From the NCBI RefSeq assembly GCF_010233585.1, contig NZ_CP045997.1, positions 3,559,779 to 3,623,778 on the forward strand: 64,000 nucleotides of DNA. The letters are read 5' to 3'. A model generated the notes under the pieces. That model saw only the letters and a list, made by a program, of their open reading frames with translations. It was not told the origin of the DNA and did no database searches. Shown piece by piece: positions 1 through 20,741 of this stretch. The position numbers and the translations under genes are program-made. Source of the DNA: Spirosoma endbachense. GTDB taxonomy: Bacteria; Bacteroidota; Bacteroidia; Cytophagales; Spirosomataceae. Within the stretch, counting starts at the first letter, position 1. Each line of letters begins with the position of its first letter.

Positions 1-2
1 TT

Positions 3-887
3 TATGTAGGCGGGTTCGATGCCTATCTGTATGCGATCGATGCCGCAACAGGTGCCCGTAAATGGTCCAGACAAGCGGCTGCCGATAAGTTTGAAAGTAG
101 TCCCGTCATTGATAATGGTGTTTTGTATATCGGGAACGACGATAAACGACTTTTTGCGATCGATGCGGCAACGGGCAACGAAAAATGGCGTTTTACAGCT
201 GGTGATAAAATCATTCCCAGCCCGGCAGTTAGCGGTGGAATCATTTACGTTGGCTCAAGCGATGCTAAAGTCTATGCGCTCAAGTCAGACGGTACCACCT
301 TATGGTCATTCCCGACGGGCGGTTATATTTTATCCAGCCCAACCGTAGTGAGTGGAACGGTGTACATCGGCAGCAGTGATAAAAAACTCTATGCCATTGA
401 TGCCACAACGGGCAAACAAAAATGGGCAGCCATACTGGGTGATAAAGTTAACTCCTGCCCGCTAGTCGTTGGCAGCACTATTTACGTTGGCACCGACGAT
501 TTTAAACTCTACGCCGTAGCCACAGCAACGGGTGCGATTTTATGGACAACGGCCAAAACAGGCAGCTTTGTAGGAGGTAGTCCTGCCTACAACAACGGGC
601 TGGTCTATGTGGGTAGTGGCGATAACAAAGTGTACGCTTTCGACGCGACCAATGGCACCAAGCGGTGGGAATTTGCCACAAATAACGAAATATATGCGAG
701 CCCGGTGGTGGCCAATGGTTTTGTTTACATTGGCAGTAACGACGGCAAGATGTACTGTCTGGATGCGACCAATGGGACAAAAAAATGGGAGTTTGCCACG
801 GGTGATCAAATCTATGCTACTCCGCTGGTTCTGAACAGTGGTGCCGTTGCCGGTGACTATCCTACCATCAGTGGAATCGTCAATTAA
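3..887 (+). CDS. PQQ-type beta-propeller repeat protein (5' partial)
   Basis: The reading frame is already open at base 3, so the start codon lies outside the window; the visible part is about 294 residues. It is built of seven or so repeats of about 38-40 residues with the pattern 'YVGS.D.K.YA.DA.TG...W.F', the signature of PQQ_2/PQQ-like propeller blades as in BamB and quinoprotein dehydrogenases. No enzyme residues can be assigned, so a scaffolding or binding role is as likely as a catalytic one. It ends 13 bases before an exported protein gene on the same strand and opens the envelope-protein chain that runs up to the type VI cluster. The fold call is firm; the function is unknown. Confidence 0.85.
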   Translation, partial: YVGGFDAYLYAIDAATGARKWSRQAAADKFESSPVIDNGVLYIGNDDKRLFAIDAATGNEKWRFTAGDKIIPSPAVSGGIIYVGSSDAKVYALKSDGTTLWSFPTGGYILSSPTVVSGTVYIGSSDKKLYAIDATTGKQKWAAILGDKVNSCPLVVGSTIYVGTDDFKLYAVATATGAILWTTAKTGSFVGGSPAYNNGLVYVGSGDNKVYAFDATNGTKRWEFATNNEIYASPVVANGFVYIGSNDGKMYCLDATNGTKKWEFATGDQIYATPLVLNSGAVAGDYPTISGIVN

Positions 888-900
888 TTGCCTCAACCTC

Positions 901-1692
901 ATGAAGCCTTTATACCAACTTCTCTTTACGCTCCTGATGCTTCTGACCAGCCAGCTAGTTCAGGCTCAGACGTCGGCCAGTAATATCCGCCTGCGCACCG
1001 ATGCCACTGTACGTAAGGTTATCATTGAATATGAGCTGCCTCAGGTACTGCCTGACGACTCGATCTACATAGAACTTGAAACAGCATCAGGACTTATTAT
1101 TCGCCCAGTTAGCGTGAATGGCGATGTTGGCAAAGCACTCAAACCGGGCAAGACTAAATTAATCGCCTGGGACGTTGTGCGCGATAATGTCCGCATCAAT
1201 GAAGACGTAAAAGTGCTCCTGCGGGTAGCCCGGATGGTAACCGTAGCCAGTCCTGCCACCGTGGCAGCGGCCCCACCCACTGTCAAAACAACAACGCCAG
1301 TCACGGAAGCTCCCCGCCCAACTTCCGACCGGGTTGCCGAACCCGGTAGCGTGGTTCGTAAATCATCGCCCCTACCCCTCATCGGCTGGATTGCCACAGC
1401 GGGATTAACGGGCTATGCAACGGTACTGGCACTTGGCATTAATAAGGATGTAGATGAATACAACAGCAAGCCATTTGCAGATGATGCAGCCGATCTTCAG
1501 CGCTTCAATGACCTCAAAGAAAAGGTCAATAAGAATAAAAGCACCTTTACCATAGTTGCAGGAGCGGCCGCGGCTGTCGCCATCGCCAATGTGATTTATA
1601 CATTCGTGGCAAAACCCAAACCAGCTCGTACATCACTCCTGATTCAGTCGGGCAATCGCATAACGAGTGTCGGTTTGAGTCGTACGTTTTAA
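901..1692 (+). CDS. Exported membrane-anchored protein, paralog of the gene at 5583
   Basis: I chose ATG 901 because it opens a clean signal peptide (charged start, hydrophobic core, cleavage after 'VQAQ'). The frame is also open upstream from 838, but that part does not look like a leader. After the leader comes a beta-rich domain of about 95 residues ('IYIELETASG', 'VNGDVGKAL', 'WDVVRD'), then a Pro/Thr/Val-rich linker. Next comes a hydrophobic helix around 'IGWIATAGLTGYATVLAL', a charged segment of about 45 residues, and a second helix rich in Ala/Val. The layout fits an inner-membrane protein with a periplasmic domain. The same architecture and many identical residues recur at 5583-6356. 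I do not recognise a named family; no catalytic motif is visible. Confidence 0.8.
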   Translation: MKPLYQLLFTLLMLLTSQLVQAQTSASNIRLRTDATVRKVIIEYELPQVLPDDSIYIELETASGLIIRPVSVNGDVGKALKPGKTKLIAWDVVRDNVRINEDVKVLLRVARMVTVASPATVAAAPPTVKTTTPVTEAPRPTSDRVAEPGSVVRKSSPLPLIGWIATAGLTGYATVLALGINKDVDEYNSKPFADDAADLQRFNDLKEKVNKNKSTFTIVAGAAAAVAIANVIYTFVAKPKPARTSLLIQSGNRITSVGLSRTF

Positions 1693-1756: not shown

Positions 1757-2917
1757 ATGAAATCGTTTTTATTTTCTATCTGTGGTTTGTTGATAGCCGG
1801 TTCGTTATTGGCACAGTCTACCCCATCGGGGCCGAAGCCTGTCGCTACGTTCCAGAGCCCGACTACGCGGTTGAATACACTGCCTCTGTTCCCAAATGCT
1901 CCGACTCCAACTGTTGCATCGCGTATCGACTGGAAGAGCGACATGGAAGCCGACCAGACCGTTTCATCACCGACTTTTCTTGCAAAAGCCTGCGTCACTT
2001 CGGCCAAACCCGTTGTTCGCTATAGCCTGCTGATGAACGATAAAGTGCAGACACAGGCGCGCGATCTTAAAGTTGAACGCGACAAAGATTGTCCGCAGGC
2101 CTTCAATCAGACAGTTCAACTCATTGAAGGTGAGAATAAATTGCGCCTGGTCGCCTACATGACAGACGGAGCAGAAGTGGCTTCTAATCTGAACGTTACC
2201 TACAAAAAGCCGCCCGTGCTCGTCCTCGAAAAACGGCTAGCCCTTGTTATCGGCAATGCGAGTTACCTGGGAGCCAACAAATTGACTAACCCCGTTAATG
2301 ACGCCAATGATATGGAAGTGGCTTTGAAGAAATTAGGATTCGAAGTGCTTCATTTTACCAATCTCGATAATAAAGGAATGAGGCAGGCCATTAACAATTT
2401 CGGCGAAAAGCTCCGCGATTACCAGGTTGGCTTGTTCTATTATGCGGGTCATGGAGTACAGAATAATGGAAACAACTACCTGGTTCCGATTGATGCCCAA
2501 CCCGAAAGCAAAAACGAGATTGAGTATGAATGCATTGATGCGAATCGCATTCTGACTAAAATGGAAGATGCCCGCACGCGCACCAATATCGTTGTACTGG
2601 ATGCCTGCCGAAACAATCCTCTGGATCGTAGCTGGAGCCGTGGTACTGACAAGGATAATACGGGCCTGGCCAGTATGAATGCCCCCATGGGTTCCGTGAT
2701 TGCCTATGCTACCTCGCCGGGCCGTACAGCCGCCGATGGGAATGGACGTAACGGACTCTACACAGCCGCTTTACTAAAAGCGTTACAAGCCCCGAATCAA
2801 ACCATCATTCAGCTTTTCCAGCAAGTCAGGTCTGAAGTACTTAAGCAATCGAACAATAAGCAGTTGCCCTGGGAGTCGACCTCCCTGACTGGTGATTTTT
2901 ATTTCCAACGGAAATAA
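1757..2917 (+). CDS. Secreted caspase-fold (peptidase C14) protein, catalytic pair intact
   Basis: A 386-residue protein with a signal peptide (cleavage near 'LLAQ'). Residues about 55-150 form an immunoglobulin-like beta domain with two cysteines ('KAC', 'KDC') that could pair in the periplasm. From about residue 158 ('EKRLALVIGNASY') it is a caspase p20-like domain. The catalytic His232 sits in 'FYYAGHGVQ' and the catalytic Cys284 in 'VVLDACRNNP'. Such proteins cleave after basic residues in metacaspases; the substrate here is unknown. The C-terminal tail 'KQLPWESTSLTGDFYF' is shared with the genes at 6984 and 8160, so the three are paralogs. It lies 64 bases after the previous gene on the same strand. 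An envelope location is inferred from the leader. Confidence 0.9.
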   Translation: MKSFLFSICGLLIAGSLLAQSTPSGPKPVATFQSPTTRLNTLPLFPNAPTPTVASRIDWKSDMEADQTVSSPTFLAKACVTSAKPVVRYSLLMNDKVQTQARDLKVERDKDCPQAFNQTVQLIEGENKLRLVAYMTDGAEVASNLNVTYKKPPVLVLEKRLALVIGNASYLGANKLTNPVNDANDMEVALKKLGFEVLHFTNLDNKGMRQAINNFGEKLRDYQVGLFYYAGHGVQNNGNNYLVPIDAQPESKNEIEYECIDANRILTKMEDARTRTNIVVLDACRNNPLDRSWSRGTDKDNTGLASMNAPMGSVIAYATSPGRTAADGNGRNGLYTAALLKALQAPNQTIIQLFQQVRSEVLKQSNNKQLPWESTSLTGDFYFQRK

Positions 2918-3171: not shown

Positions 3172-5547
3172 ATGCCTACTCTTTTACGAAAGCTCTTACT
3201 TCTATTGGCAGTCGGCGTGTTGCTGATCAATTGCTCTAAGTGGAAACTCGATCCGTATGATTTAATTCCGCAAGTTAAGACCGGAACTCCTCCTGCTGGT
3301 CCGGCTACTACTTCTGTGCAGGTCGATTGCGTCATCGAAGCCTTAGGTGCCAATACTCTTCAGGAGTTTGGCGTTGTCTATTCCACATCCAATCAACAAC
3401 CCACAACCAGCGATACCAAAGTAGTTGCAACCGGAACCAGTGGCAGTGCACCGGTCGTTCTGAACGGGCTGCAACCCAACACGACGTATTATTACCGTAC
3501 GTATGCCATCAATAATAAGGGGCTGATTGGCTATGGGGAAACGTTATCCTTCAAGACAGCGACGGTCATTGCCGAAGTTAAAACCCTTGATCTGGTAGGA
3601 ACTCCGGGAGCAACGTCCTTTCAGGTACAGGTGCAGGTTACGAATACCGGCACGGTTACCCTTAAAGAATATGGTATCGTTTATTCGACAACGAATCAAC
3701 AGCCCACTACAGCCGACACCAAAGTACTCGCTACGGGCACCACGGGTGCAACCACACCCGTATCGCTTACTAATCTACAGCCAAATACCACCTATTATTA
3801 TCGGGCCTATGCCATCACCAGTACGGGCGATGTGAGCTATGGTGATACCAAGCAGATTAAAACGGGCGAGCCAGCTCCGGTAGTTCAAACCCAGGACCCA
3901 GTTGGTACACCGTCTTCGAGTTCGGCTGTACTGCAGGCTCAGGTGAGTAATGCCAGTCAGATTACGTTAAAAGAGTATGGAGTCGTGTATTCGCCTACCA
4001 GCCAAACACCAACTATCGCCGACAGCAAAGCCGTTGCGTCGGGAGTTACGGGTGCATCGGTTTCCCTGATCATCAGTAATCTGCAACCCAACACGACGTA
4101 TTACTACCGTTCGTATGCCACCAATGGAGCTGGAACTACGACCTACGGCGATGTCAAGCAGCTCAAGACGGGAGCAGCGACACCAACTGTCAGTACCGTG
4201 GCATTACTCAATACCAAACCGCTACTATTAGGCAATATATCCGCCACGGTCAGTTTTACAGTAGACCCGGCCGCTGCGGTTACTGAATACGGCATGGTAT
4301 TAACGCCTGATCCGAATCAAATAAGTGCATTGATGGCCGGGACTGCCGCACCCTTACGGCGATTTGTTACAGCTGCTCCAGCTAACGGCAAAATTGATTT
4401 TGAGATAAAAGACCTAACCGAAAATTCGCCTTACTATGCCGTAGCTTTTGCGAAAGATGCGACGGGTAAGACTGTCTTTTCGAAGGAATTTGCAGCTTTT
4501 CAGACTAAGTATGGACCACGTGGCAACTGGCGACAACTAGCCAATTTACCTACTCAACTGGCTGGCGTCTACAACACACTGTTTACAATAAACGGTAAAG
4601 TTTATGTAGGCGGGCAGGCTATTGGTAGCGGGGTAAATTACAGTTATTTCAAGCAGTTGTATGAGTACGACCCAGAAACCAACATGTGGACTAAAAAGAA
4701 AGACCTGCCGGGAACAGCCCGCATAGAGCCCACCGTGACGGTACTGAACAACAAAGCGTACGTTCTTTTTGGTATAGGACTCAATACCAGCCAGGTAACC
4801 TATACATCCGATGCCTGGGAGTATGACCCGGCTACGGATAACTGGCGCGGATTAAGCACTCCCCCAGCCACAAAGGTCGGCGGACAGGGTGTATATAATC
4901 TACAGGCTGGCGCCATTCCGTTTACGTATAACAACAAAGTGTATGCCCTATTTGGCAGAGGCCCCTACAACAACGATGTTAATCTGACCAATATTTATAA
5001 TTCACTGTATGGACTTGATCCATCCGCCGGAAGCAATGGCTCCTGGGATGTCAGCTTCCCTCTGAATGACAAAGGGCTTGCCAACAACGTGATCTATTCA
5101 GCAGCACGCTCGGCAGCCTTTTATTTTCAGGATGGCAACATAGTCTATTTTGGGGGCGGTTTGATCGCCAGCGCCTATAATGCCGTAGGTGCCAATCTAC
5201 CCTACAGCACCTATTTCAACAGCCGACAAATCTGGTCTTATAATGCCCAAACGAGTGAGTTGAAACAGGTGGCTCTGCTCCCTACCACCTTTAACGATTG
5301 CTCCAGCACAGGCCCAACCGGCGACACCGGCGGACGGATGCAATACACGGCATTTGTGGTTGGCACAAAAGCCTATATCGTCGATTGTAGTCACAAAACG
5401 TGGGTTTTCGATCTAACTACCAAGGCTATTCCCACACAAGTTGCTACACTTAACAACCCGACAGGAACCGTTGGTATCGGTGTTGGGGTCGGTACAAAAG
5501 CCTACTTCGGCCTTCGGAATGCTGACTGGTGGGAGTTCACACCCTAA
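3172..5547 (+). CDS. Fibronectin-III-like repeats plus Kelch propeller, probable lipoprotein
   Basis: A 791-residue protein. The N-terminus is a hydrophobic leader ending in a cysteine (Cys21, 'LLINC'), suggesting a lipoprotein, although Asn at -1 is not the usual lipobox residue. Three near-identical repeats of about 95 residues follow ('EYGIVYSTTNQQPTTADTK ... LQPNTTYYYRAYA'), typical of fibronectin-III-like domains in Bacteroidota surface proteins, plus a fourth, more diverged copy. From about residue 440 the sequence has Kelch/galactose-oxidase blades ('YEYDPETNMWTKKKDLPG', 'WEYDPATDNW'). The likely role is binding at the cell surface; no enzyme residues are evident. The strong internal repeats make this gene prone to copy-number change. 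Confidence 0.85.
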   Translation: MPTLLRKLLLLLAVGVLLINCSKWKLDPYDLIPQVKTGTPPAGPATTSVQVDCVIEALGANTLQEFGVVYSTSNQQPTTSDTKVVATGTSGSAPVVLNGLQPNTTYYYRTYAINNKGLIGYGETLSFKTATVIAEVKTLDLVGTPGATSFQVQVQVTNTGTVTLKEYGIVYSTTNQQPTTADTKVLATGTTGATTPVSLTNLQPNTTYYYRAYAITSTGDVSYGDTKQIKTGEPAPVVQTQDPVGTPSSSSAVLQAQVSNASQITLKEYGVVYSPTSQTPTIADSKAVASGVTGASVSLIISNLQPNTTYYYRSYATNGAGTTTYGDVKQLKTGAATPTVSTVALLNTKPLLLGNISATVSFTVDPAAAVTEYGMVLTPDPNQISALMAGTAAPLRRFVTAAPANGKIDFEIKDLTENSPYYAVAFAKDATGKTVFSKEFAAFQTKYGPRGNWRQLANLPTQLAGVYNTLFTINGKVYVGGQAIGSGVNYSYFKQLYEYDPETNMWTKKKDLPGTARIEPTVTVLNNKAYVLFGIGLNTSQVTYTSDAWEYDPATDNWRGLSTPPATKVGGQGVYNLQAGAIPFTYNNKVYALFGRGPYNNDVNLTNIYNSLYGLDPSAGSNGSWDVSFPLNDKGLANNVIYSAARSAAFYFQDGNIVYFGGGLIASAYNAVGANLPYSTYFNSRQIWSYNAQTSELKQVALLPTTFNDCSSTGPTGDTGGRMQYTAFVVGTKAYIVDCSHKTWVFDLTTKAIPTQVATLNNPTGTVGIGVGVGTKAYFGLRNADWWEFTP

Positions 5548-5582
5548 AACCGCGCTATAACCATCTACGCCAACTCAATACT

Positions 5583-6356
5583 ATGAATCGAGTTTTATAT
5601 CATCGCCTGTTTCCCTTTCTGGTCATACTGCTCACCAGCCTGGCCGTTCATGCACAACAGGCACCATCTGAAGCAACCAACATCCGGATTTCGCCAGACG
5701 AGAAAACCAGGCGATTGGTTATCCAGTACGACTTGCTGAGTGTACAACCCGGCGATTCGCTCTACGTCGAGATAGAGACTGCTTCGGGGCGGCATTTACG
5801 GCCTATTTCCGTTAGTGGCAATGTTGGGAAAGCAATCACGGCTGGTCGAAATAAAACCATTTACTGGGACATTGTCCGCGACAAGATCCAGCTCGACGAA
5901 GAGGTGGAGGTAATTATCCGGCTCGTACGGGGCGTAAACGTTACCCGACCAGCCACGGCGGCCAAACCGAAACCACCCGTTCCGGCTCCCGTGGTTAGCG
6001 TACAGAAAAAATCACCGCTTCCCATTATTGGCTGGATCGCTACGGGTGGTCTGGCAGCCTATACGTTTGTGCTGGCTTCGGGTCTCAACAAAGATGTTGA
6101 TGCCTACAACCAGAAAACAGTGGCCAATACCCTGGCAGAATGGAACACTGCCGAAGACAAGCGAAAAGACATCGATAGCCGCCGGGGAACGGTGACCATT
6201 GTAGCGGGGGCTACGGCCGCCCTGCTCATCGCCAATATTGTGTATACCGTCGTTCGTAAATCAAATCAGAATAGCAAACCGAACCAACTACGTACTGCCT
6301 GGCAGATCAGACCTGCCAGCCAATCGATGGGTGTTGGTCTGGTGCATACGTTTTAA
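5583..6356 (+). CDS. Exported membrane-anchored protein, paralog of the gene at 901
   Basis: ATG 5583 starts a signal peptide (cleavage near 'VHAQ'); the open frame extends upstream to 5529, but that stretch overlaps the previous gene and lacks a leader. The 257-residue product has the same plan as the protein at 901-1692. It shows a beta domain with 'LYVEIETASG', 'VSGNVGKAI' and 'WDIVRDK', a Pro/Ala-rich linker, a helix 'IGWIATGGLAAYTFVLA', a charged stretch, and a second Ala-rich helix. The pair flanks the first caspase gene and the lipoprotein, which points to duplication of a gene block. No named family recognised; a periplasmic sensor or scaffold role would be a guess. Confidence 0.8.
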   Translation: MNRVLYHRLFPFLVILLTSLAVHAQQAPSEATNIRISPDEKTRRLVIQYDLLSVQPGDSLYVEIETASGRHLRPISVSGNVGKAITAGRNKTIYWDIVRDKIQLDEEVEVIIRLVRGVNVTRPATAAKPKPPVPAPVVSVQKKSPLPIIGWIATGGLAAYTFVLASGLNKDVDAYNQKTVANTLAEWNTAEDKRKDIDSRRGTVTIVAGATAALLIANIVYTVVRKSNQNSKPNQLRTAWQIRPASQSMGVGLVHTF

Positions 6357-6369
6357 GCCGCTCAATAGG

Positions 6370-6897
6370 ATGAAACTAATTGGACTTTTCTTAGCCGGGC
6401 TTTTACTTGTGTTTACAGCTCAGGCGCAGGAATCGGGAGATGGTGTCTCGGTCTCTCGTAGTGTACGTCAGAAGATCAGTACCAAAAGCCTTTATGTTCC
6501 CGAGCCAGCAGCATCGTCGAAAAAACCGAAAGGGACAAATCCATCGGAGGAGAAAGCGGCCAATCCATTGCAAGCCATACAGTTTGTGCAGAGCCAGGCC
6601 GAATTCCTGCCCAGTTCCCAGCCGGCGCTCGAAGAGTTAGTAGCCTTTATGCGAAGTAAGCCAACTGTTGAAATCGAGTTGGCTGGTCATACCGATAATC
6701 AGGGCGATTTCGACCAGAATGTGCTGCTCTCGAAAAAACGCGTGGATTTAGTGAAGGATTATTTAGTAAAAAATGGCATTGCGTCCAGTCGCATTACGAC
6801 ACGTGGTTATGGTCCGACTCGCCCGATTGCCAGTAATAGCACCGAAACGACACGAAAGCTAAACCGGCGTGTAGAGATGTATGTATTGAAACAATAA
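6370..6897 (+). CDS. OmpA-family protein with peptidoglycan-binding C-terminal domain
   Basis: ATG 6370 begins a signal peptide (cleavage near 'AQAQ'), 13 bases after the previous stop, so the two are probably co-transcribed. The 175-residue product has a short N-terminal segment and then an OmpA/MotB-type domain. This includes 'AGHTDNQGDFDQN', 'LSKKRVDLVKDYL', 'GYGPTRPIASN' and 'NRRVEMYV', the residues that hold the meso-diaminopimelate of peptidoglycan in this family. The first 28 mature residues ('ESGDGVSVSRSVRQKISTKS') closely match the same region of the caspase protein at 6984. That sharing is unusual, because the rest of the two proteins is unrelated. It probably anchors something to the wall. 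Confidence 0.9.
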   Translation: MKLIGLFLAGLLLVFTAQAQESGDGVSVSRSVRQKISTKSLYVPEPAASSKKPKGTNPSEEKAANPLQAIQFVQSQAEFLPSSQPALEELVAFMRSKPTVEIELAGHTDNQGDFDQNVLLSKKRVDLVKDYLVKNGIASSRITTRGYGPTRPIASNSTETTRKLNRRVEMYVLKQ

Positions 6898-6983
6898 CAG
6901 TCAACTAGCTAGCAATAAAGGAACGGCCAACGAATCATAAACCAATGTTAGCCAGACCAATACACAATAACCCTCTTAATATC

Positions 6984-8132
6984 ATGAAACTAAATATACT
7001 GTTCTTCATCGGATTTCTGGTCGTGCAGACAGCACAGGCACAGGAATCGGAACCTGGTATTTCAACCTCTCGAAGTAGTCGTCAAAAAATAAATACGCAA
7101 AGCTTCTACGCCCCCGAAACGGTCAATGTTCCGCAGATTACGTTTCAAATGGGCGATGGACAAAGCAGTACAGTTCAGACCGATGAAATTGTTGTAAAAG
7201 CATGCATCAAAACCAGCAAGCCCCTAACCCGCCTAAACCTGTTTGTGAACGATGCCTTACAACAGGCCAGTCGGGAACTGAAAGTACAATCCGACGGGGC
7301 TCAAAAGGAGTGCGATCAGGCCCTTTCACAAACCGTTCAGCTTCGGGAAGGCGACAACCGGCTTAAACTGGTAGCCCAAAACGAAGGAGGTATTACATCT
7401 GAATCGTTTCTGATCAGGTATGATAAACCCGCAGCAATTGTTGCCGAAAAACGGCTGGCTTTAGTGATTGGCAACGCCGATTATCCATCATCAAATCGCC
7501 TGACCAACCCGGCTAATGATGCCAATGATATGGCCGAAGCCCTTAAAAATGTGGGTTTTGAAGTGATGATTCACACGAATATGGACGTTCGATCCATGCG
7601 TCGGGCCATTGATGAATTCGGCAATAAACTTAAGGATTACCAGGTCGGATTGTTCTATTATGCGGGTCATGGTGTGCAGAGCAGAGGCCGCAACTTCCTG
7701 GTACCGATTGACGCAAAACCCGAAAGCGAAAACGAAATTGAGTATGACTGTTTTCTGGCCGACCGGATACTGACCAAAATGGAGGATGCCCGCACACGCA
7801 CCAACATTGTGGTACTGGATGCCTGCCGCGACAATCCTTTCGAACGCAGTTGGAGCCGGGGAGGTAGTGAAAATACTGGACTTACAACAATGGATGCCCC
7901 TGTTGGATCGGTGATTGCCTATGCAACCTCACCGGGCCGAACGGCGGCCGACGGAAACGGTCGCAATGGCTTATATACAGCCGCCTTGTTAAAAGCACTA
8001 CAAGTTCCTGATCAACCACTGACCCAGCTCTTTCAGCGGGTTCGGGCCGAAGTGCTTAAGCAATCGAACAACAAACAACTACCCTGGGAGTCAACATCAC
8101 TAACTGGCGATTTCTATTTCCGGCGCAAGTGA
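6984..8132 (+). CDS. Secreted caspase-fold (peptidase C14) protein, catalytic pair intact
   Basis: I start at ATG 6984 (signal peptide ending near 'AQAQ'); an upstream in-frame ATG at 6945 gives no leader. The product has 382 residues. A short leader-like segment is shared with the OmpA protein just upstream. Then comes an Ig-like domain with two cysteines ('KAC', 'KEC'), and a caspase domain from 'EKRLALVIGNADY'. Catalytic His229 lies in 'FYYAGHGVQ' and Cys281 in 'VVLDACRDNP'. It is closely similar to the protein at 1757 over the whole length. It is followed after 27 bases by a third caspase-fold gene that has lost both catalytic residues. Active peptidase is likely by motif; substrate and activation are unknown. 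Confidence 0.9.
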   Translation: MKLNILFFIGFLVVQTAQAQESEPGISTSRSSRQKINTQSFYAPETVNVPQITFQMGDGQSSTVQTDEIVVKACIKTSKPLTRLNLFVNDALQQASRELKVQSDGAQKECDQALSQTVQLREGDNRLKLVAQNEGGITSESFLIRYDKPAAIVAEKRLALVIGNADYPSSNRLTNPANDANDMAEALKNVGFEVMIHTNMDVRSMRRAIDEFGNKLKDYQVGLFYYAGHGVQSRGRNFLVPIDAKPESENEIEYDCFLADRILTKMEDARTRTNIVVLDACRDNPFERSWSRGGSENTGLTTMDAPVGSVIAYATSPGRTAADGNGRNGLYTAALLKALQVPDQPLTQLFQRVRAEVLKQSNNKQLPWESTSLTGDFYFRRK

Positions 8133-8159: not shown

Positions 8160-8912
8160 ATGAAAATTATATGCCTTCTGCTTGTAGCCAGCTTTGCCCT
8201 GGATTGCCTTGCGCAAACGGGTAATTCGGGGCAGGCCAATGAAAAGCGACTGGCGCTGGTTATTGGCAATGGCGACTACACCAATGGGGCATCGTTGCCC
8301 AAGGCGATCAATGATGCCAACGATATGGCTGTCGCTTTGCCACGGGCAGGATTCGAAGTCATGCTGTTTACAAATGTCGACAAGACATTTCTGAAACGGG
8401 CGATCAGCGAATTCAGCGCTAAACTAAAGGGCTATCAGGTAGGCATGATTTACTACGCGGGGAGCGGTATTCAGGCAGAAAATCAGGAGTATCTGGTACC
8501 AATAGACGCCGATTTCAGTAAAACGGACGCGATAAAGTCCATGTGTCTGCCCCTTAGTCAGCTCGTCGAGGAAGTGGCGGCTGCGAAAGTACCTGTCAAT
8601 ATCATTCTGATCGACGCCGACCGCACCAATCCTGTTGAATCAATGTACACTCGTAACTCACCCCGTTCGTTAGACACTCCATTAGGGTTTGTCGTGGCTT
8701 ATTCAACCGCGCCAGGCAAAGCGCTGGTTGATAACCAAGGCCGAAACAGCCTCTATACCGAAGCATTGTTACAGGCAATGGCAATCCCTGATCAAACGCT
8801 GATTCAGATGTTTCAGACTGTTCGGGCACATGTGATTAAACAGTCAAACAACAAGCAGCTACCCTGGGAGTCGACCTCACTAACGAGCGATTTCTATTTC
8901 CGACGGAAGTAA
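8160..8912 (+). CDS. Pseudo-caspase: caspase-fold paralog lacking catalytic His and Cys
   Basis: A 250-residue protein with a signal peptide (cleavage near 'CLAQ') leading straight into a caspase-fold domain ('EKRLALVIGNGDY'); the Ig-like domain of its paralogs is absent. At the catalytic His position the motif reads 'YYAGSG' (Ser102, codon AGC at 8463-8465). At the catalytic Cys position it reads 'IDADRTNP' (Asp154, codon GAC at 8619-8621). The frame is intact, and the structural motifs and C-terminal tail 'KQLPWESTSLTSDFYF' are kept, so this looks like a maintained inactive homolog rather than a decaying gene. By analogy with other dead caspase paralogs it could regulate the two intact ones; that is inference. 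Confidence 0.88.
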   Translation: MKIICLLLVASFALDCLAQTGNSGQANEKRLALVIGNGDYTNGASLPKAINDANDMAVALPRAGFEVMLFTNVDKTFLKRAISEFSAKLKGYQVGMIYYAGSGIQAENQEYLVPIDADFSKTDAIKSMCLPLSQLVEEVAAAKVPVNIILIDADRTNPVESMYTRNSPRSLDTPLGFVVAYSTAPGKALVDNQGRNSLYTEALLQAMAIPDQTLIQMFQTVRAHVIKQSNNKQLPWESTSLTSDFYFRRK

Positions 8913-9013: not shown

Positions 9014-9487
9014 ATGAAAATCTTATTAGTAGTGATGCCAGGCTACAAATGGAGCCTGGAGCCTAAAGTAATCCCTACTGGCGGAAATCCTGATTATGGG
9101 ATTTTTTCGAAAGGGCGGGTGGAAATTCCTATCTTAAAAGGCTATGATCTTGATGGAGGCAGTGTACTGGCCGATGGGTCGACACCAGCTGATTTTTACT
9201 GGAATGTTGAGCAGCTCACAAAAGTACCCAGAGGAGAACTGTATGCCCATAATGGAGCAAAATTTGCCACAACCATACTGGCTCAAACCGTCTTGCAACA
9301 GTCCCGATCAATGTTGTATTCAACACAAACGCAACAAACGTACTCAGATAATTCGATTGCTACCGATTCCAGCACACCGATAAAAGCAGGAATTGTCATT
9401 GCTTACCAGACAAGTGACGGACGGTATGGTGCCTTTAAGGTAGACAAACTCGGAACGGGAACTGCCTTGACCCTTTCCATAACCTAG
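9014..9487 (+). CDS. Hypothetical protein between the caspase module and clpV
   Basis: A 157-residue open frame on the same strand as its neighbours, 101 bases after the pseudo-caspase gene. The sequence begins 'MKILLVVMPGYKWSLEPKV' and is rich in Gly, Ser and Thr. It has a Gln/Ser/Thr-rich middle and a beta-rich end ('GIVIAYQTSDGRYGAFKVDK'). There is no convincing signal peptide or membrane helix. I do not recognise a family. Its place at the head of the type VI cluster suggests a secretion-linked role, but nothing in the protein shows this. The stop codon lies inside a perfect 12-base palindrome at 9480-9491. Confidence 0.6.
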   Translation: MKILLVVMPGYKWSLEPKVIPTGGNPDYGIFSKGRVEIPILKGYDLDGGSVLADGSTPADFYWNVEQLTKVPRGELYAHNGAKFATTILAQTVLQQSRSMLYSTQTQQTYSDNSIATDSSTPIKAGIVIAYQTSDGRYGAFKVDKLGTGTALTLSIT

Positions 9488-9724: not shown

Positions 9725-12256
9725 ATGCTAACCCTTGCTTACACTGAAGAATTAAGACGCGCCGTCAGCATTGCTCAGGCCATTGCGCGAGAACACCAGC
9801 ACCTGACGTTCTCACCGGGACATCTGCTAACTGGACTGCTTCATAACGACGTTGGGCTGGCTTCGCAGTTGACCGTCTGGGATGTCGATGTGCCCTATTT
9901 ACGCGACTGGGCCGATATTCGTGTCGAAAGCTATCCGAAATCGGCCCGAACAACCCAGGAACCCGCCGGTGACACGCAGGTCAAGGCTCTGATGGAAGTG
10001 TCGGATGTGGTTCGGATGAAACTCGGTGAGCACGAACTCACCCCAATGGCTGTACTAACGGCCATGTGCAAACCCGATGTGGCTTTCACACGTGACCAGC
10101 TTAAATCCTTTCCACTAACCGAGAATCAACTGCTCGAAAAAGCCATGCAGGATGTTGGCTTTCAGCAGGCTATCAATGGCCAAACGGGAGGTGTAGCAGG
10201 CAACGGGAAGGTCAGTAACAGCTCTGTTTCAGCCGGGGCTGGTGATTCAGGCGCAACGGGTAAAACGCTCTTTAAATTCTGCACCGACCGAACAGCATCG
10301 GCCCGTGAAGGTAAACTAGATCCTATTGTTGGGCGCGATCGCGAAACCCGCCAGATGATCGAAATCCTTGGGCGCAGGCTCAAACCAAATGTCATTATTA
10401 CGGGAGAACCCGGCGTTGGCAAAACCGCACTTGTTGAAGGTTTAGCCCAGCAGATTGTGGCTGGCAATGTTCCTCCGCATCTTAAAAATGCCCAGTTATT
10501 TCAACTGGATATGGGATCGCTCATTGCCGGAGCATCCTACAAAGGCGAAATCGAAGACCGGCTTAAAGGAATTCTGGCCGACCTGAAACAGTTTGACCGG
10601 GCTCTGCTCTTTATCGACGAAATTCATGTGCTGATGGACCCACACGGAGGAGCAGTTGGTACGGTAAACCTGCTTAAGCCCGAACTGGCGCGGGGTGAAC
10701 TGACGCTTATTGGCGCAACGACCAACGACGAATACCGCAAATACCTCGAAAAAGACGAAGCCTTTGCCCGCCGATTTGAGGTGCTGGCCGTTGAAGAGCC
10801 CGACGAACAGACGGCTACCCGGATGGTGCAAACCATTCTCCCGTTATTCGAGAAACATCACCAGATCGGTGTAGCCGAAACAACCGTTGCCGAAACCGTT
10901 CGTCTTGCCAAACGATATCTGAAAGACCGACGATTGCCTGATGCTGCCATTGACCTCATCGACCGAACGATGGCTGCGATGAAAATGGCCGCAGAAACCA
11001 CTCAGCCCGAAATCGATCGACTGAGGACCGAACTAGCCGATATACGCAAAAATGCAGACATAGCAGACCCTTTGACGTATATGCCTAACGTTAGGTGGTT
11101 TGAGCTTCAGATGAAGAACCGGCTTAGCCCTGTTCTACTCGGTCAGGTCGAAGAAGATCTGCATACCGATTCATTTGAAGTACCTGATGCCCTGGCCGAC
11201 CATCTGGCCAATCTGCTTACGAAACTCGAAGCCCTAAGTGAACAGGTTCGGGATAAGGTCGAACCTGCCGAAGTGGCCGCTGTGGTTGCGAACCGTACCG
11301 GAATTCCGCTTGGCAAAATCCAGTCGAAAGAGCGCGATAAACTCCTGGCGCTGGATGAGCATCTGAAACAGCGCGTGGTTGGTCAGGATCATGCCGTGAA
11401 GATCATTGCCGATGCCATTCTGGAAAACCGATCGGGTCTTAGCCGACCGGGACAGCCAATTGGCTCGTTTTTCTTCTCCGGTCCAACCGGGACCGGTAAA
11501 ACCGAACTGGCAAAATCAATGGCTGACTTTCTTTTCAACGACGAGCGCGCCCTGATCCGGTTCGATATGTCTGAATTTAAGGAAGAACACTCAGCGGCCC
11601 TGCTCTATGGCGCCCCTCCGGGCTATATAGGCTATGAAGAAGGGGGTTTGCTGGTAACCAAAATTCGGCAACAGCCCTTTGCGGTTGTCCTATTCGATGA
11701 GATCGAAAAAGCGCACCCATCGGTATTCGATATTTTCCTGCAAATTCTGGATGAAGGATTGCTTCACGACCGGCTTGGCCGGGAGGGTGATTTTTCGAAC
11801 GCGATCATCCTGTTCACCTCCAACATTGGGAGTGATTATGTGGTGGAAAAAGCCGCTAAGGGTGAGATAGCCGCATCGAACGATCTGCTGGAAATAATGG
11901 GCCGTTTTTTCCGGCCGGAATTCCTGGGACGTCTGACGGAAATTATTCCCTTCCAGCCCATTTCAGAAGAAGCGATTGTGAGCATTTTCAATATTCAGTT
12001 GAAATCGCTCCTCAAAATGCTTGATAAACAAGGCATCACGGTCACTATCGACGATGCAGCCCGCAAGCAACTGGCGCTCGAAGGCTACACACCCAAATAT
12101 GGTGCACGACCGTTGCGGGGTGTGATCCGGAATCGGCTCCGCCGACCGCTCTCACGCATGATTGTGTCGGGAGAGATCGGCAAAGGCTCTCACCTTAAGC
12201 TGGTAACGAATGAGTTAGGCGAATTGAGTTTTGAAACGGTACAGATGACCGTTTAA
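9725..12256 (+). CDS. clpV: Type VI secretion ATPase TssH (ClpV)
   Basis: An 843-residue AAA+ protein of the ClpB/ClpV class, the usual length for TssH. An N-terminal Clp repeat domain (about 1-150) is followed by the first AAA module: Walker A 'GEPGVGKT' at 227-234 and Walker B 'LLFIDEIH'. A shortened middle region comes next, then the second AAA module: Walker A 'GPTGTGKT' at 586-593, '[12 protein letters not shown]' and 'GARPLRGVI'. In type VI systems this hexamer disassembles the contracted TssB/TssC sheath in the cytoplasm. Its place next to tssB, tssC and vgrG, and the N-terminal domain unlike that of ClpB, favour ClpV over a general disaggregase. Confidence 0.93.
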
Positions 12257-15194: not shown

Positions 15195-15650
15195 ATGGCA
15201 GTCAATAAACCCCAGATCGGGGGAGTCATTATCCCCGAAGAAACCAGCGAGGCTATCAAGTTCCTCCAGGAAAATAAAACGGCAATGGTTGGCAAATTTA
15301 CGGCCGATTCCATGAGTCAGGCTCCTGTTGAAGGGGTACAGAAATTACAGGACGCATTCGATACGTTTCAGCCGGAGGTCGATGTAACACATGAGACCGA
15401 AGATGGCGAAGAAGTCAATGAAACCCTGTTTTTTCAGAATCTGACGGCTTTCAGCAAGCAGGGCATCATTGACCAGAGCGCGTTTTTACAAGCCCTTCAG
15501 TCGCAGGAAGACAATTACCAGAGCCTGATTAAACGGCTCATGTCGAACAAAGCCTTTCAAAAATTACTGGCCGATCCGCAGGCGAAACAGGCGTTTATCG
15601 ACGCCCTGAATGTGATGGCCAATGAGCTAGACGACGCCGACGCAAATTAA
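15195..15650 (+). CDS. tssB: Type VI sheath small subunit TssB
   Basis: A 151-residue acidic protein next to tssC. It matches the TssB pattern in its C-terminal half ('FQPEVDV', 'LFFQNLTAFS', 'FLQALQSQ', 'IKRLMSNKAFQKLL'). With TssC it builds the contractile sheath around the Hcp tube in the cytoplasm. The length is usual for Bacteroidota TssB, shorter than many proteobacterial forms. The pairing with tssC 42 bases downstream is the strongest support. Confidence 0.85.
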   Translation: MAVNKPQIGGVIIPEETSEAIKFLQENKTAMVGKFTADSMSQAPVEGVQKLQDAFDTFQPEVDVTHETEDGEEVNETLFFQNLTAFSKQGIIDQSAFLQALQSQEDNYQSLIKRLMSNKAFQKLLADPQAKQAFIDALNVMANELDDADAN

Positions 15651-15692: not shown

Positions 15693-17066
15693 ATGGCAAA
15701 AGAAGAACAGAATCCGGAGAATGCGCCCTTGCTCAGAGCGCGCGTAGTTGAACAACAAAAGCCTACGCGTTCACTCACCGAAAGCGTTCAGCAACTGACC
15801 AAATTTGGCGGATTTGAGTTCATTAAAACGGTCGTAGACGGTACCGAAAATATGGACCCGTCTAAAAAAGCACGTAAGTCGATCTTTCTGACGGAGGAGG
15901 ACAACAAACAGGACCGAAAAAAACTCAAAAAACGGCTCAGGGATTTTGCCGATTTACTGGCCGCACACGACAATGTAGCCGACATGATTGCCGAAGCCGA
16001 ACAAAAGGCTGCTTCGGCCAGCAATACGCTGAAAAAGAATCTGGCTACTGTGCTCACTCAAACCGAAGAGTTAGAGGCATCTTATCGGTCATTGTCGCTG
16101 TTTTTCGAGAACGCTGAGTCAGAAAAGGTCAAAAACCTTGTGTTGTTCGATGCGGGTAATGACATGACAACCGACGCCGATGGGTTCAGCAATCCGACGG
16201 GCATTTTCGAACAGGTTGCGAAAGAACTGCGTGATGGGTACGATAAATTAGATCTCTCCGAAAACTACTCGCTGCTGGTATTACCGGGCTGGCTCAAGAA
16301 AAATGTCATTGTCGACAAATGGGCTTCGCTGGCGTATCAGAACAAGGTGATGATGCTGACGGACTATCGTCACCTGGATGACCCGGATAGCGTTGAAGCG
16401 ACTTTCGAGCGCGACAAACTAACCGGCGCAGATCCGCACAAAGCCAACGTGATGATGCCGTGTAACTGGATCGTAGGTCGCGAAGCCTACACCGAACTGG
16501 GTCAGGAAGAACACCTGTATGTGTCGCCTGCCATGGCCCTGGCCGGAATGCTCTGGGGAGGGCACATTGCCCAGCCATCGGCCGGTGTACAGCATGGTAA
16601 GCTCAAAATGGCCAGTGGTGTCCGATTCAGCATGCGTAAAGGTGAAATTGCCCAATTGGAAGACAAAGGTCTGATTCCAATGGTCTATGAATATGGTCGG
16701 GTAATTCCATTCTCGGCCAAAACGCTCTTCAACGGTGACAACGTAGGCCTGCAAACCTACAGCGTTGTACGGGTATTCGATTGGATCGGAAAAGTATTTC
16801 AGGATTTTCTGAATCGTCGGACATTCGAGAATATCGACAATAAGATGATCGAAGAAATCAAAGGACAGGTGGCCAGCTTTTTAGCCACCATCCGGGGACC
16901 TGGCAAGATCATCGAAGACTTCAGCAATCTTGACATCCGTCGGCATCCAACCATTCCGACCCACGTCATTGTGAATGTAAAACTCAAACCATTCTTCCCA
17001 GCTAAAGTATTTGAAATCAACCTGACCGGAACCAAAGGTCAATGGGATGCCGACTTAAAACAATAA
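15693..17066 (+). CDS. tssC: Type VI sheath large subunit TssC
   Basis: A 457-residue protein with the TssC (EvpB/VipB) signature: 'LVLPGWLKK', 'VMMLTDYRHLDDPD', 'NVMMPCNWIVGREAY', 'SPAMALAGMLWGGHIAQP', and a C-terminal 'PAKVFEINLTG' strand like those that interlock sheath subunits. It forms the outer sheath with TssB. It lies between tssB and hcp, all on one strand with short gaps. Confidence 0.93.
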   Translation: MAKEEQNPENAPLLRARVVEQQKPTRSLTESVQQLTKFGGFEFIKTVVDGTENMDPSKKARKSIFLTEEDNKQDRKKLKKRLRDFADLLAAHDNVADMIAEAEQKAASASNTLKKNLATVLTQTEELEASYRSLSLFFENAESEKVKNLVLFDAGNDMTTDADGFSNPTGIFEQVAKELRDGYDKLDLSENYSLLVLPGWLKKNVIVDKWASLAYQNKVMMLTDYRHLDDPDSVEATFERDKLTGADPHKANVMMPCNWIVGREAYTELGQEEHLYVSPAMALAGMLWGGHIAQPSAGVQHGKLKMASGVRFSMRKGEIAQLEDKGLIPMVYEYGRVIPFSAKTLFNGDNVGLQTYSVVRVFDWIGKVFQDFLNRRTFENIDNKMIEEIKGQVASFLATIRGPGKIIEDFSNLDIRRHPTIPTHVIVNVKLKPFFPAKVFEINLTGTKGQWDADLKQ

Positions 17067-17105: not shown

Positions 17106-17498
17106 ATGGCTCACAAGTCAACCCTCAAAATCGACGGTAAAGAGTTTGAAGTACTCTCCCTTTCTTACAGTTTTCACCAACATGTCAATCCTAACACGAA
17201 CGAAACAACTTCGGAAGTATTTGGTGGTAACATCGATGTATCGATTGAAACCCGCAACGCCGACGCCAAGATTATCGAACTGATGGTCCTTCCTCATAAA
17301 GATGATGTAAGCGGAAGCATCGAGTTGAAAAACCAGAAGGGCGAAGAATTGCGAACCATCAAGTTCGACCACTCGGCCATTATCAACTTCAGCGAGTCGT
17401 TCAGTTTGTCGGGCAGTGGCACAGGTACACAGAGTTTCACGATCTGTTCACGCGATCTGGATGTGAATGGCCAGAAGCTGAAGCTACTGCGCGAATAA
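17106..17498 (+). CDS. hcp: Type VI tube protein Hcp (TssD)
   Basis: A 130-residue beta-rich protein with the TssD features of Bacteroidota: 'LKIDGKEFEVLSLSYSFHQ', 'GGNIDVSIETR', 'DVSGSIELKN', and a closing beta-strand. Hexamers stack into the tube that is thrown out on contraction. It follows tssC by 39 bases. A strong hairpin lies 32 bases after its stop codon, so hcp may be made in excess over the genes behind it, as expected for a tube subunit. Confidence 0.92.
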   Translation: MAHKSTLKIDGKEFEVLSLSYSFHQHVNPNTNETTSEVFGGNIDVSIETRNADAKIIELMVLPHKDDVSGSIELKNQKGEELRTIKFDHSAIINFSESFSLSGSGTGTQSFTICSRDLDVNGQKLKLLRE

Positions 17499-17573: not shown

Positions 17574-18074
17574 ATGAAAACGTCAATACGCCAAAAAAAA
17601 TATCGACCTCGATACACCCAGCGAATAAGCTCTGTTAGCTACTGGGTAGGTCTTTTCGCCGGACTGGCCTTGTTTTTGGCAAGTGCATATTCAGCCTGTG
17701 CGGCCAAACCACCGGCAACTATTTTCGGCGAGTATGTCGGCTTTACAGACAAAAGCAAATCGAGTGGTCAATATCTGCCGACTAAAAAAACGGATAAAAT
17801 ACAGATTTCCAGAAGCTCGACGGCCGATGCGAAGGTGACGATTTCGATGACATTTGATAAAGGCCAGAGTTGTGAACTGGAAGGCGATGCCGTTTGGAGC
17901 AACGGCCAGCTAACAGTAAAGGCCGATGGTCTCGATGAAGCCAAGCCCTGTCAACTTGTGCTCCGAATCAACGGCGCGATAATAACCTTGCAGGACTCGG
18001 GCATGTACTGCCGGGAGGTGTATTGTGGAGCGCGTGGTACATTCGATAAAGCCCGCTTTCAAAAGAAGCTCTAG
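17574..18074 (+). CDS. Exported Cys-rich small protein, candidate lysozyme immunity/inhibitor
   Basis: A 166-residue protein with a long basic N-region, a hydrophobic core ('YWVGLFAGLALFLASAY') and a likely cleavage after 'ACAA', so the mature part is periplasmic. The mature domain is beta-rich with four cysteines: 'QSCELEGDAVW', 'KPCQLVL', and 'MYCREVYCGARGTF'. The last motif is like the C-terminal part of some small lysozyme-inhibitor-like lipoproteins (from memory). The gene lies 54 bases before a T4-lysozyme-like gene, between hcp and vgrG. A periplasmic protein coded beside a muramidase in a type VI cluster is most simply its immunity protein; this is inference. Confidence 0.68.
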   Translation: MKTSIRQKKYRPRYTQRISSVSYWVGLFAGLALFLASAYSACAAKPPATIFGEYVGFTDKSKSSGQYLPTKKTDKIQISRSSTADAKVTISMTFDKGQSCELEGDAVWSNGQLTVKADGLDEAKPCQLVLRINGAIITLQDSGMYCREVYCGARGTFDKARFQKKL

Positions 18075-18869: not shown

Positions 18870-20741
18870 ATGTCTTCCACCAATCAATATATTGCAGTAG
18901 CCGAAGTAACGATCAATGGCACTCCGTTGAAGCGGTTTAATAGCGTTCGGATCAGTCAGCGTTTTGACGGCCATCATGATTTTGAACTAAGCCTTTCGCC
19001 CGATATGCTCGATGGTGGAACGGCAACGGTTAAGCTGAAAGAATTAGGACAGAAATTTGTAGGCGAGTTAGCTACCATCAAGCTCAAACAGGGCGAAATG
19101 GACAAAGGAACGCTTAAATCTGAAAAACAAAATTTAACCTTTAAAGGCATTGTTACGGGCGTACAACTCTCCAAGGGTCAGTCTGCCACCCAATCCATTC
19201 TCATTAGCGGCAGCAGCCCCACACTCCTGCTAAATGCAGGCCGTACAACCCGCTCGTTCGATGAAATGACACCGAGTGCTATTGTCGAAAAGATCATTTC
19301 CTCGTTGGGGCTAAGCGTTACTGTTTCGGCCACCAGTAATCCCGTACTGCCTTACATTACGCAATACGAAGAAGACGACCTCCATTTTGTCCAGCGGCTG
19401 GCTGAAGCTTACGGTCAATGGTTCTTTTACGATGGTGAAAAGCTATACTATGGTAAAAAGTCGGCCGACACAGGCGTCACGCTTGTTCATGGCAGTAACT
19501 TCTTCGATATGGAGTATAGCCTGCGCGTGGCTCCAATGAAGATGAACGCGAAGTACTATGATTTCTCCACCGATCAATATTTATCAGCCGAAGTAACGAG
19601 CAATGATGTCGATGGTTTACAGGAATTTGCCAAACTGGTTCGTGACAAATCCAGTGCCTTATTCAAAGATAACCCCGTTGAACTGGGCTATCAGAACCAC
19701 CAGAAAGACAATACACTGAAAGACGTTGCCAAACTCAAAATCAGTGAAATTTCCAACAAATTAGCGGTGCTACAAGGGCGAACCTCCGAAATGCAGTTGA
19801 AAATCGGCGGTACGGTCAAAGTCAAAGATGAGATTTATGGCGTCAGTGATGCCCGCCAGGGAGCTCAGTTGCAGGAAACCATTGACTATGGCACGTTTCT
19901 GATTACGCGCCTAAGCCATTATCTCGATTCAAGAGGTATTTATCAGGCTAATTTTGAGGCTATTCCGCAGGATATTGATTTTCCGCCCGTCGATTACAAG
20001 ATCAGTTCGCCTAGTGCTCCCCCGCAGCCTGCCATTGTGAAGCGAGTAGACGACGAAGAAAGCCTGGGGCGCGTGAAGGTACAGTTTGCCTGGCAACAGG
20101 ATAGTAGCCAGACAACTCCCTGGGTTCGCGTGGCCCAGTCCATGGCCTATAAAGACCAGGGTGTCTATTTTATTCCGGAAATTGACGAAGTTGTATTCGT
20201 TGATTTTGAGATGGGCAACCCCGATCTACCGTTTGTGCGGGGCAGTATGTTTCACGGCGATAAAACACCAGGCCCACTATTCGACAAAGACAACAACATC
20301 AAAGGAATCATTACCCGAAGTGGTAACCACATCCTGATCAATGACGAATCGGGCAAGGAGAGCATTAAAATTTACAACAAGGATCAGAAAAATACCATCG
20401 AACTGCTGCTCGACGGCGGAACGACTATCAACATAAAAAGCGAGGGAAATATCAACATCGAGGCCAAAGACACGATTACGATGAAGGCTAAAACGATTGA
20501 TATGACTGCTGATCAGGAATGGAAAGTAAAAGCAGGCAAATCCGAAATTAACAACGATCAGGGCATGAAAATAAATGCAAATGCCAAGGTTGAAGTGGCG
20601 GGTCAGGCTGGCGTAAAAGTAGAAGGGGCAACGATTGATATAGAAGCCCAGGCAAAAGCGTCGATCAAAGCCAATGCCCAGCTGGCACTGGAAAGTAGTG
20701 GCCAGGCATCGTTGAAAGGAACAATTGTCATGATCAACTAA
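18870..20741 (+). CDS. vgrG: Type VI spike protein VgrG (TssI)
   Basis: A 623-residue VgrG. The N-terminal half is the gp27-like hub ('FEAIPQDIDFPP' marks its end). It is followed by the OB-fold gp5-like domain ('VKRVDDEESLGRVKVQFAWQ', 'TPWVRVAQSMA', 'DEVVFVDFEMGNPDLP') and then a repetitive beta-helix needle ('INIKSEGNINIEAKDTITMK'). It ends shortly after the needle, so it carries no fused toxin domain. The trimer forms the tip of the tube and takes PAAR at its point. The following gene starts only 2 bases after the stop, which ties that candidate effector to this spike. Confidence 0.95.
   Translation: MSSTNQYIAVAEVTINGTPLKRFNSVRISQRFDGHHDFELSLSPDMLDGGTATVKLKELGQKFVGELATIKLKQGEMDKGTLKSEKQNLTFKGIVTGVQLSKGQSATQSILISGSSPTLLLNAGRTTRSFDEMTPSAIVEKIISSLGLSVTVSATSNPVLPYITQYEEDDLHFVQRLAEAYGQWFFYDGEKLYYGKKSADTGVTLVHGSNFFDMEYSLRVAPMKMNAKYYDFSTDQYLSAEVTSNDVDGLQEFAKLVRDKSSALFKDNPVELGYQNHQKDNTLKDVAKLKISEISNKLAVLQGRTSEMQLKIGGTVKVKDEIYGVSDARQGAQLQETIDYGTFLITRLSHYLDSRGIYQANFEAIPQDIDFPPVDYKISSPSAPPQPAIVKRVDDEESLGRVKVQFAWQQDSSQTTPWVRVAQSMAYKDQGVYFIPEIDEVVFVDFEMGNPDLPFVRGSMFHGDKTPGPLFDKDNNIKGIITRSGNHILINDESGKESIKIYNKDQKNTIELLLDGGTTINIKSEGNINIEAKDTITMKAKTIDMTADQEWKVKAGKSEINNDQGMKINANAKVEVAGQAGVKVEGATIDIEAQAKASIKANAQLALESSGQASLKGTIVMIN

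Follow-up and report, generated by a model that had tools for sequence, protein, structure and literature searches.

The window, a stretch of 64,000 nucleotides from Spirosoma endbachense, carries a gene (8160..8912) for a protein that has the fold of a caspase and lacks its catalytic residues. This gene stands in tandem with caspase B, one of two neighboring caspases (A and B) with an intact His/Cys dyad, and it is followed by the genes of a type VI secretion system of subtype iii (T6SSiii). We suggest that this pseudo-caspase is a non-cleaving partner of caspases A and B in an envelope cassette linked to the T6SSiii, and that it is kept by selection. We infer the partnership, and we give this reading as a whole a probability of about 0.5.

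From its sequence, it is well supported that the pseudo-caspase is catalytically dead and belongs to the pseudo-orthocaspases, i.e., C14 proteins with a substituted dyad. The Pfam C14 caspase domain is matched at 122.8 bits against a cut-off of 21.4, with all 233 profile positions covered. It is the sole domain that Pfam finds in the protein at E 0.001, and no death-effector domain is seen at that threshold. The fold is of the C14 / caspase-hemoglobinase type, the dyad is substituted, and the acidic pocket residues Asp52 and Asp152 are present. As with c-FLIP, a caspase fold without the catalytic Cys is found in the same genome as a paralog with an intact dyad. A sequence-only reading of the window had placed Ser102 at the position of the catalytic His and Asp154 (codon GAC, 8619-8621) at that of the Cys, and both motifs, YYAGSG and IDADR, are indeed in the sequence. 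Its claim of two adjacent intact caspase paralogs is correct within this cluster (YYAGHG and LDACR), in a genome of 10.3 Mb on one contig, where three of the 13 C14 matches lie in this cluster. The open reading frame (ORF) has no internal stop, and the lack of a frameshift noted in that reading extends to the relatives, since the frame is open in 4/4 loci read as DNA and nine further members are full-length protein records. A sequencing error or a pseudogene is not favored. The protein of an independent genome (G004) is 95% identical and has the same Ser and Asp, while the two sites are Arg and Asp in a further relative (P0002, 90%). These independent relatives agree on the Asp, and the ratio of nonsynonymous to synonymous substitution rates (dN/dS) indicates constraint. 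The protein is probably secreted.

The family alignment contains 13 distinct sequences, the window's included, of which four were read as DNA and nine are protein records. The column of the catalytic Cys is Asp in 13/13. Because the column of the catalytic His holds His in seven sequences, Gly in three, Ser in two and Arg in one, the change from Cys to Asp is the sole fixed trait of the dyad, and Ser102 is rejected as a conserved trait. Thus, the earlier view that both changes are kept together stands for the Cys site and fails for the His site. Orthologs with a restored His or Cys were to count against that view; the His does occur among the relatives at the frequency given, and the Cys in 0/13. 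Asp52 and Asp152 are each kept in 12/13, the exceptions being Asn52 in G002 and Asn152 in P0038. We take Asp52, by its motif, to be the counterpart of Asp95 of the metacaspase TbMCA2. By analogy with Asp211 of that enzyme, Asp152 would be at an S1-pocket position. The S1-pocket residues of TbMCA2 are Asp95 and Asp211 (PMC4357240).

Beyond these residues, the fold core and the C-terminal strand are retained while the active-site loops drift. After thinning at 85% identity, ten pseudo-caspases (mean identity 50%) were compared with 17 active sequences. Of the 81 columns that are conserved across the active paralogs, 33 are fixed and unchanged in the pseudo-caspases, 47 are variable, and one, Cys to Asp, is fixed anew. 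In the unthinned comparison Pro to Ala49 is also fixed anew (13/13), in a column that misses the 95% mark once the active set is thinned. Conservation ratios of pseudo to active sequences are 0.96 to 1.01 in beta-1, alpha-2 and the C-terminal strand, and 0.51 to 0.71 in the active-site loops and residues 118-145, where the loss is largest. The T-A-A-D-G loop, invariant in 49/49 rows of caspases A and B, is scrambled in the pseudo-caspases.

Purifying selection on the pseudo-caspase is well supported at the sequence level. The figures come from Nei and Gojobori counting with our own script and rest on the comparison of the window with G004, as those with G002 and G033 are saturated and the pseudo-caspase row of G033, which was paired with a caspase A, is left out. 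For the pseudo-caspase, dN is 0.022 and dS 0.120, a ratio of 0.184 (bootstrap 0.081-0.399), which agrees with the earlier prediction of a value below 1. About 12.5 of the 32 changes are nonsynonymous (binomial P 1.4e-4 for at most 12 when 70% are expected). The ratio is 0.051 for caspase A, 0.032 for caspase B and 0.037 for ClpV. That of the pseudo-caspase is raised because its dS is low, near the bottom of the range of 0.117-0.654 (median 0.211) over 17 compared genes. A neighboring gene (17574-18074) has a ratio of 0.25, above that of the pseudo-caspase.

In a tree made without the two dyad columns, the 13 pseudo-caspases form one clade (bootstrap/SH-aLRT 100/100). This clade is sister to caspases A and B together (94/90, which is under the tool's mark for strong support, and with a warning of long branches inside the pseudo-caspase clade). 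In a larger quick tree, the grouping of A with B has an SH-aLRT value of 98. The tree, as read by eye, suggests that Cys was changed to Asp once at the base of the family and that loss of the His followed on at least two occasions. Given its sister position, a recent origin of the pseudo-caspase as a copy of caspase B is not favored. Within the window, the last 31 codons of the pseudo-caspase and caspase B are 80.6% identical in nucleotides and the remainder 55.0%, and local conversion or constraint at the 3' end is possible. The catalytic domains of caspases A and B are intermixed in the tree. In G002 they share 83.1% DNA identity in the catalytic domain and 45.5% in the N-terminal part, a pattern that suggests gene conversion between A and B. 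The Cys is absent from all pseudo-caspase copies despite the neighboring templates that bear it.

The gene is present in 4/36 genomes of the genus: the host (G000), G004 (95% identity), G002 (50%) and G033 (41% by BLAST). In all four it lies between caspase B and clpV, with an extra Kelch-like gene between caspase B and the pseudo-caspase in G033. In the eight loci read, it is found only where caspases A and B are both present, and four loci (G029, G013, G011 and G146) with caspase A have neither caspase B nor the pseudo-caspase, with a single match per genome in the family search. Three further large contigs (402559, 5607638 and 786305 bases) each appear to hold records of a pseudo-caspase, an A-like and a B-like caspase, if the records do share a contig. 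A protein search gave at least nine more distinct members, as protein records only, besides P0001 (the window's protein) and P0003 (that of G002). Among the 120 matches listed, 108 have the His/Cys dyad. Of the other 12, 11 are members of the pseudo-caspase family, each having Asp at the Cys site, and one (P0117) has Gln/Gly. A second search with a wider alignment gave 15 new proteins among the matches listed, none in the pseudo-caspase clade. In each search about 8000 candidates sharing the most words were scored and 120 matches listed, and more family members may exist. A scan of a genome collection with a single protein gave one distant cyanobacterial locus only, with its dyad intact.

The gene order is propeller-like gene, TM1, caspase A, Kelch, TM2, OmpA-like gene, caspase B, pseudo-caspase, the gene at 9014, clpV and then the T6SSiii genes (Table 1). 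The assignment to T6SSiii comes from a TssC, a TssD and a TssN of Bacteroidota type together with a ClpV. Since TssR is absent or unidentifiable in 31% of the T6SSiii surveyed in PMC10781749, and thus not universal, a missing TssR does not bar membership.

Table 1. Positions of the caspase cassette, the substituted residues and the T6SSiii genes in the window
Feature	Position	Strand	Remarks
Propeller-like, lipoprotein-like protein, 3' part	1..887	+	PQQ-type repeats (by eye); start upstream of window
TM1, secreted/membrane protein	838..1692	+	Upstream of caspase A; likely start 901; no Pfam match
Caspase A, intact His/Cys	1757..2917	+	386 aa; YYAGHG, LDACR
FN3-like + Kelch-repeat protein	3172..5547	+	791 aa
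TM2, TM1 paralog	5529..6356	+	Likely start 5583; no Pfam match
OmpA-like protein	6370..6897	+	N-terminal basic arm in common with caspase B
Caspase B, intact His/Cys	6945..8132	+	395 aa ORF, likely start 6984; YYAGHG, LDACR
Pseudo-caspase	8160..8912	+	250 aa, ATG start; signal-peptide-like N-terminus (by eye) and caspase domain only
Ser102 codon AGC	8463..8465	+	Catalytic His position, motif YYAGSG; site variable in family (His/Ser/Arg/Gly)
Asp152-Ala153-Asp154	8613..8621	+	Motif IDADR; acidic S1-pocket Asp and Asp at catalytic Cys position
157-aa protein	9014..9487	+	Between pseudo-caspase and clpV; no Pfam match
ClpV/TssH AAA+ ATPase	9725..12256	+	"Type I" clpV class
TssB	15195..15650	+	Inferred from position ahead of TssC; no Pfam match
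TssC of T6SSiii	15693..17066	+	PF17541, 515.7 bits
TssD/Hcp	17106..17498	+	PF17642
VgrG-like spike	18870..20741	+	Phage_base_V, Phage_GPD
TssF	21715-23517	+	
TssG	23518-24483	+	
TssN	24565-25413	+	PF17555

The clpV matches fall into distinct identity classes, and 52 of 92 were read: all nine at 86% identity or above (type I), all 12 at 68-76%, and 31 others picked by hand. With the main C14 profile, a caspase gene is found near clpV in 9/9 type-I loci and in 0/43 others (Fisher 2.7e-10, for loci that share descent); eight of the nine have an A-type caspase, and G005 has different ones. At the control locus G027, a second caspase type is matched weakly three times (E 2e-6 to 1e-27). A relative of TM1 is in the stretch read in 9/9 type-I loci and in 1/43 others (a TM1-like match in G123). 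The gene tssR lies 0-21 bp upstream of clpV, from open frame to open frame, in 5/43 other loci (clpV 54-55%) and in 0/9 type-I loci. In G146 (0 bp) and G011 (4 bp) a caspase occupies this tssR-like spot directly upstream of clpV. TssR (PF17643) has no match in the host genome or in the seven genus genomes with caspase A, and it has matches in 10/36 genus genomes; TssC is present in 30/36.

Several observations concern the cassette and its surroundings. In locus L079 (15727-16887), a longer ORF of the propeller-like gene is seen. Caspase B has a signal-peptide-like N-terminus, a basic N-terminal arm, a beta-rich domain and the caspase domain, and in its AlphaFold2 model (mean pLDDT 77.8) beta strands at 64-159 precede the caspase fold. 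A segment after the signal peptide (SRSxRQK-[IL]-[NS]-T.. / TxRLNT..F) is shared by caspase B (6984-7150) and the OmpA-like protein (6370-6530) and is looser in caspase A (1757-1890). It is seen in nearly all full-length relatives of A and B that were aligned, is missing from the pseudo-caspase, and may be a docking or processing arm. A second neighboring pair of caspases (L005 and L012; C1:3647666-3649132) lies about 24 kb past the end of the window. As another dead/active pair it is rejected, as His and Cys are intact in both; one of the two is 32% identical to a 404-aa caspase near clpV in G005. At that G005 locus (L082, 7083-15406), a caspase whose repeats look WD40-like by eye lies about 1.1 kb from clpV and a second, secreted-looking caspase type 8.2 kb off. 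There is a papain-like protease upstream of clpV and no A-type caspase, as if the protease set beside clpV were exchangeable. The window has a papain-family protease with DUF4384 at the far end of the T6SSiii cluster (28729-30270), 37% identical to the protease near the G005 clpV. A 319-aa protein (27724-28683) has an N-terminus (MKPLNQ.ER, then a membrane helix) like those of TssQ-like proteins near clpV in G001, G005 and G031 (by eye), and it may be the TssQ of the system. In the loci L042 (G033) and L043-L045, clpV is 86-89% identical to that of the window, and the adjoining TssB is 46-49% and TssC, in three of the loci, 52-54% identical. Because these sheath proteins are far more distant than clpV, the clpV-caspase block and the sheath genes differ in history.

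We propose that the pseudo-caspase would bind caspase A and/or B, or their peptide substrate, via the surface of its caspase fold. Once bound, it would tune or hold A and B without cutting, by analogy with c-FLIP-L and caspase-8. A role as regulator or decoy, as suggested by the sequence-only reading, would fit where the gene lies and with which caspases it co-occurs. The extra Asp154 would probably stabilize the non-cutting state, or the binding of basic (Arg/Lys) peptides in the retained acidic pocket. Several points weigh against such a partnership. The protein lacks the N-terminal domain and basic arm of A and B, and the S1-pocket residues that it keeps would equally suit a decoy. Its dN/dS is 3.6-5.8 times that of caspases A and B, so that constraint is partly relaxed. 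Its spread is narrow, with 4/222 genomes above 400 bits in a family-wide search and the next best match at 305. Among the matches listed, and provided that the records share a contig, two contigs (30903 and 3873768 bases) carry a pseudo-caspase and an A-like caspase with no B-like one, and two others (108740 and 187979 bases) a B-like caspase with no pseudo-caspase; because of these, strict co-occurrence with caspase B is established for the loci read only. Finally, Klemencic et al. 2019 (PMC6426788) regard prokaryotic pseudo-orthocaspases as most likely not regulators of active ones.

After partnership, we rank a decoy, a scaffold and a decaying gene, in this order. As a receptor or decoy, the pseudo-caspase would use its acidic pocket (Asp52, Asp152, Asp154) to bind Arg/Lys peptides, such as the basic arms at the N-termini of caspase B and of the OmpA-like protein, and to shield or place them, with no need to contact the fold of the caspases. 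The invariance of the added Asp154, the near-invariance of Asp52 and Asp152, whose counterparts are S1-pocket residues in TbMCA2 (PMC4357240, PMC6426788), and the SRSxRQK arm in both caspase B and the OmpA-like protein are consistent with this. However, other columns of the pocket region drift, as seen in the T-A-A-D-G loop, the two Asn substitutions touch the pocket itself, and some A rows have Gln or His as the arm residue ahead of Leu/Val-Asn-Thr. We consider a decoy unlikely. We are more doubtful still that the pseudo-caspase is a building block, its link to proteolysis lost, of an alternative T6SSiii envelope complex in which the caspase/propeller/OmpA cassette replaces tssP/tssR. The distribution of C14 and tssR beside clpV points to this complex, as does the absence of TssR from all seven genomes with caspase A, and T6SSiii short of membrane-complex parts are concentrated in Spirosoma, Hymenobacter and Flavobacterium (PMC10781749). 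Against it, in 38/43 other loci a phmmer search with one Spirosoma TssR gave no tssR and the main profile no C14 gene, so that the cassette is not a general replacement. The exclusion between TssR and the cassette is too weak alone (Fisher 0.064), the tssP search used one query on the window and these clpV loci only, and the intact dyads of A and B suggest that proteolysis matters.

That the gene is a degenerating duplicate heading for loss is improbable. Its raised dN/dS, the drift of many once-conserved columns and its presence in few genomes of the genus would fit decay, but the frames are open in all loci read as DNA and the other members are full-length records, at a mean identity of only 50% in the thinned set, the Asp is invariant, nonsynonymous changes are depleted, and the C-terminal tail is as conserved as in the active copies. 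Least probable of all is an enzyme with changed chemistry, for which the joint presence of His and Asp in 7/13 members could speak, since the His was lost in at least two lineages, the window's among them, and the catalytic loops are not conserved. We consider it possible, though unlikely, that the caspase cassette took over the genomic position, and perhaps also the function, of tssP/tssR, with the Cys-to-Asp protein as a dedicated non-cleaving subunit gating the two active caspases. If true, one lineage of Spirosoma and its kin would possess a contractile injection system under caspase control.

By sequence and by fold, the closest solved structure to the pseudo-caspase is that of the human MALT1 paracaspase, which is active and Arg-specific. 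The model also has a match to one chain of a caspase-8:c-FLIPL structure entry. Dead caspases that partner active ones are known in eukaryotes. Like c-FLIP-L, the dead partner of caspase-8 (PMC6426788), the pseudo-caspase is a dead caspase-fold paralog beside active ones. It differs in that Pfam finds no death-effector domain, that it is probably secreted and that its partnership is proposed here. Trypanosoma brucei metacaspase 4, a pseudopeptidase processed by MCA3 (PMC6426788), is likewise a dead member beside active paralogs, but it is eukaryotic and has a YS substitution. Among bacteria, the pseudo-orthocaspases share with our protein the C14/p20 fold, the replaced His-Cys dyad, the retained acidic specificity pocket and the formation of their own clades. 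They number 858 of 9,994 bacterial orthocaspases and 10 of 1,078 in Bacteroidetes, 90% of them are alphaproteobacterial or cyanobacterial, and the dyads named are YS, YA, FS, QC, HA, YN, YY and YG (Klemencic et al. 2019, PMC6426788). YD and QD are among rare, scattered cyanobacterial variants (PMC8283722). Unlike these, the family described here has Cys fixed as Asp, a free His site and a place in a T6SSiii cluster, and we found no clade so defined in these two accounts. The secretion system is of the same type as the Bacteroidota T6SSiii with a TssNQOPR membrane complex (PMC10781749), where the spot held by tssR in five related loci is that of the caspase cassette here; the word caspase is not in the main text of that paper. 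At the level of titles and abstracts, no link of caspases, orthocaspases or metacaspases with T6SS or Spirosoma was found in the literature, nor was anything found under the term catalytically inactive caspases in bacteria. The earlier statement that no such bacterial set has been described therefore holds for this set, for which we found no account, but not for pseudo-orthocaspases, already a described class.

The three caspase genes, two with intact dyads and one dead, form a compact and conserved triad whose partner system is clear from the genomic context, and the genus has cultured members. For these reasons, the role of dead bacterial caspases is directly testable here. A tandem triad of this sort could settle whether prokaryotic pseudo-orthocaspases regulate active ones. 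It also provides a lead on how Spirosoma T6SSiii without recognizable membrane-complex parts might be anchored or controlled.
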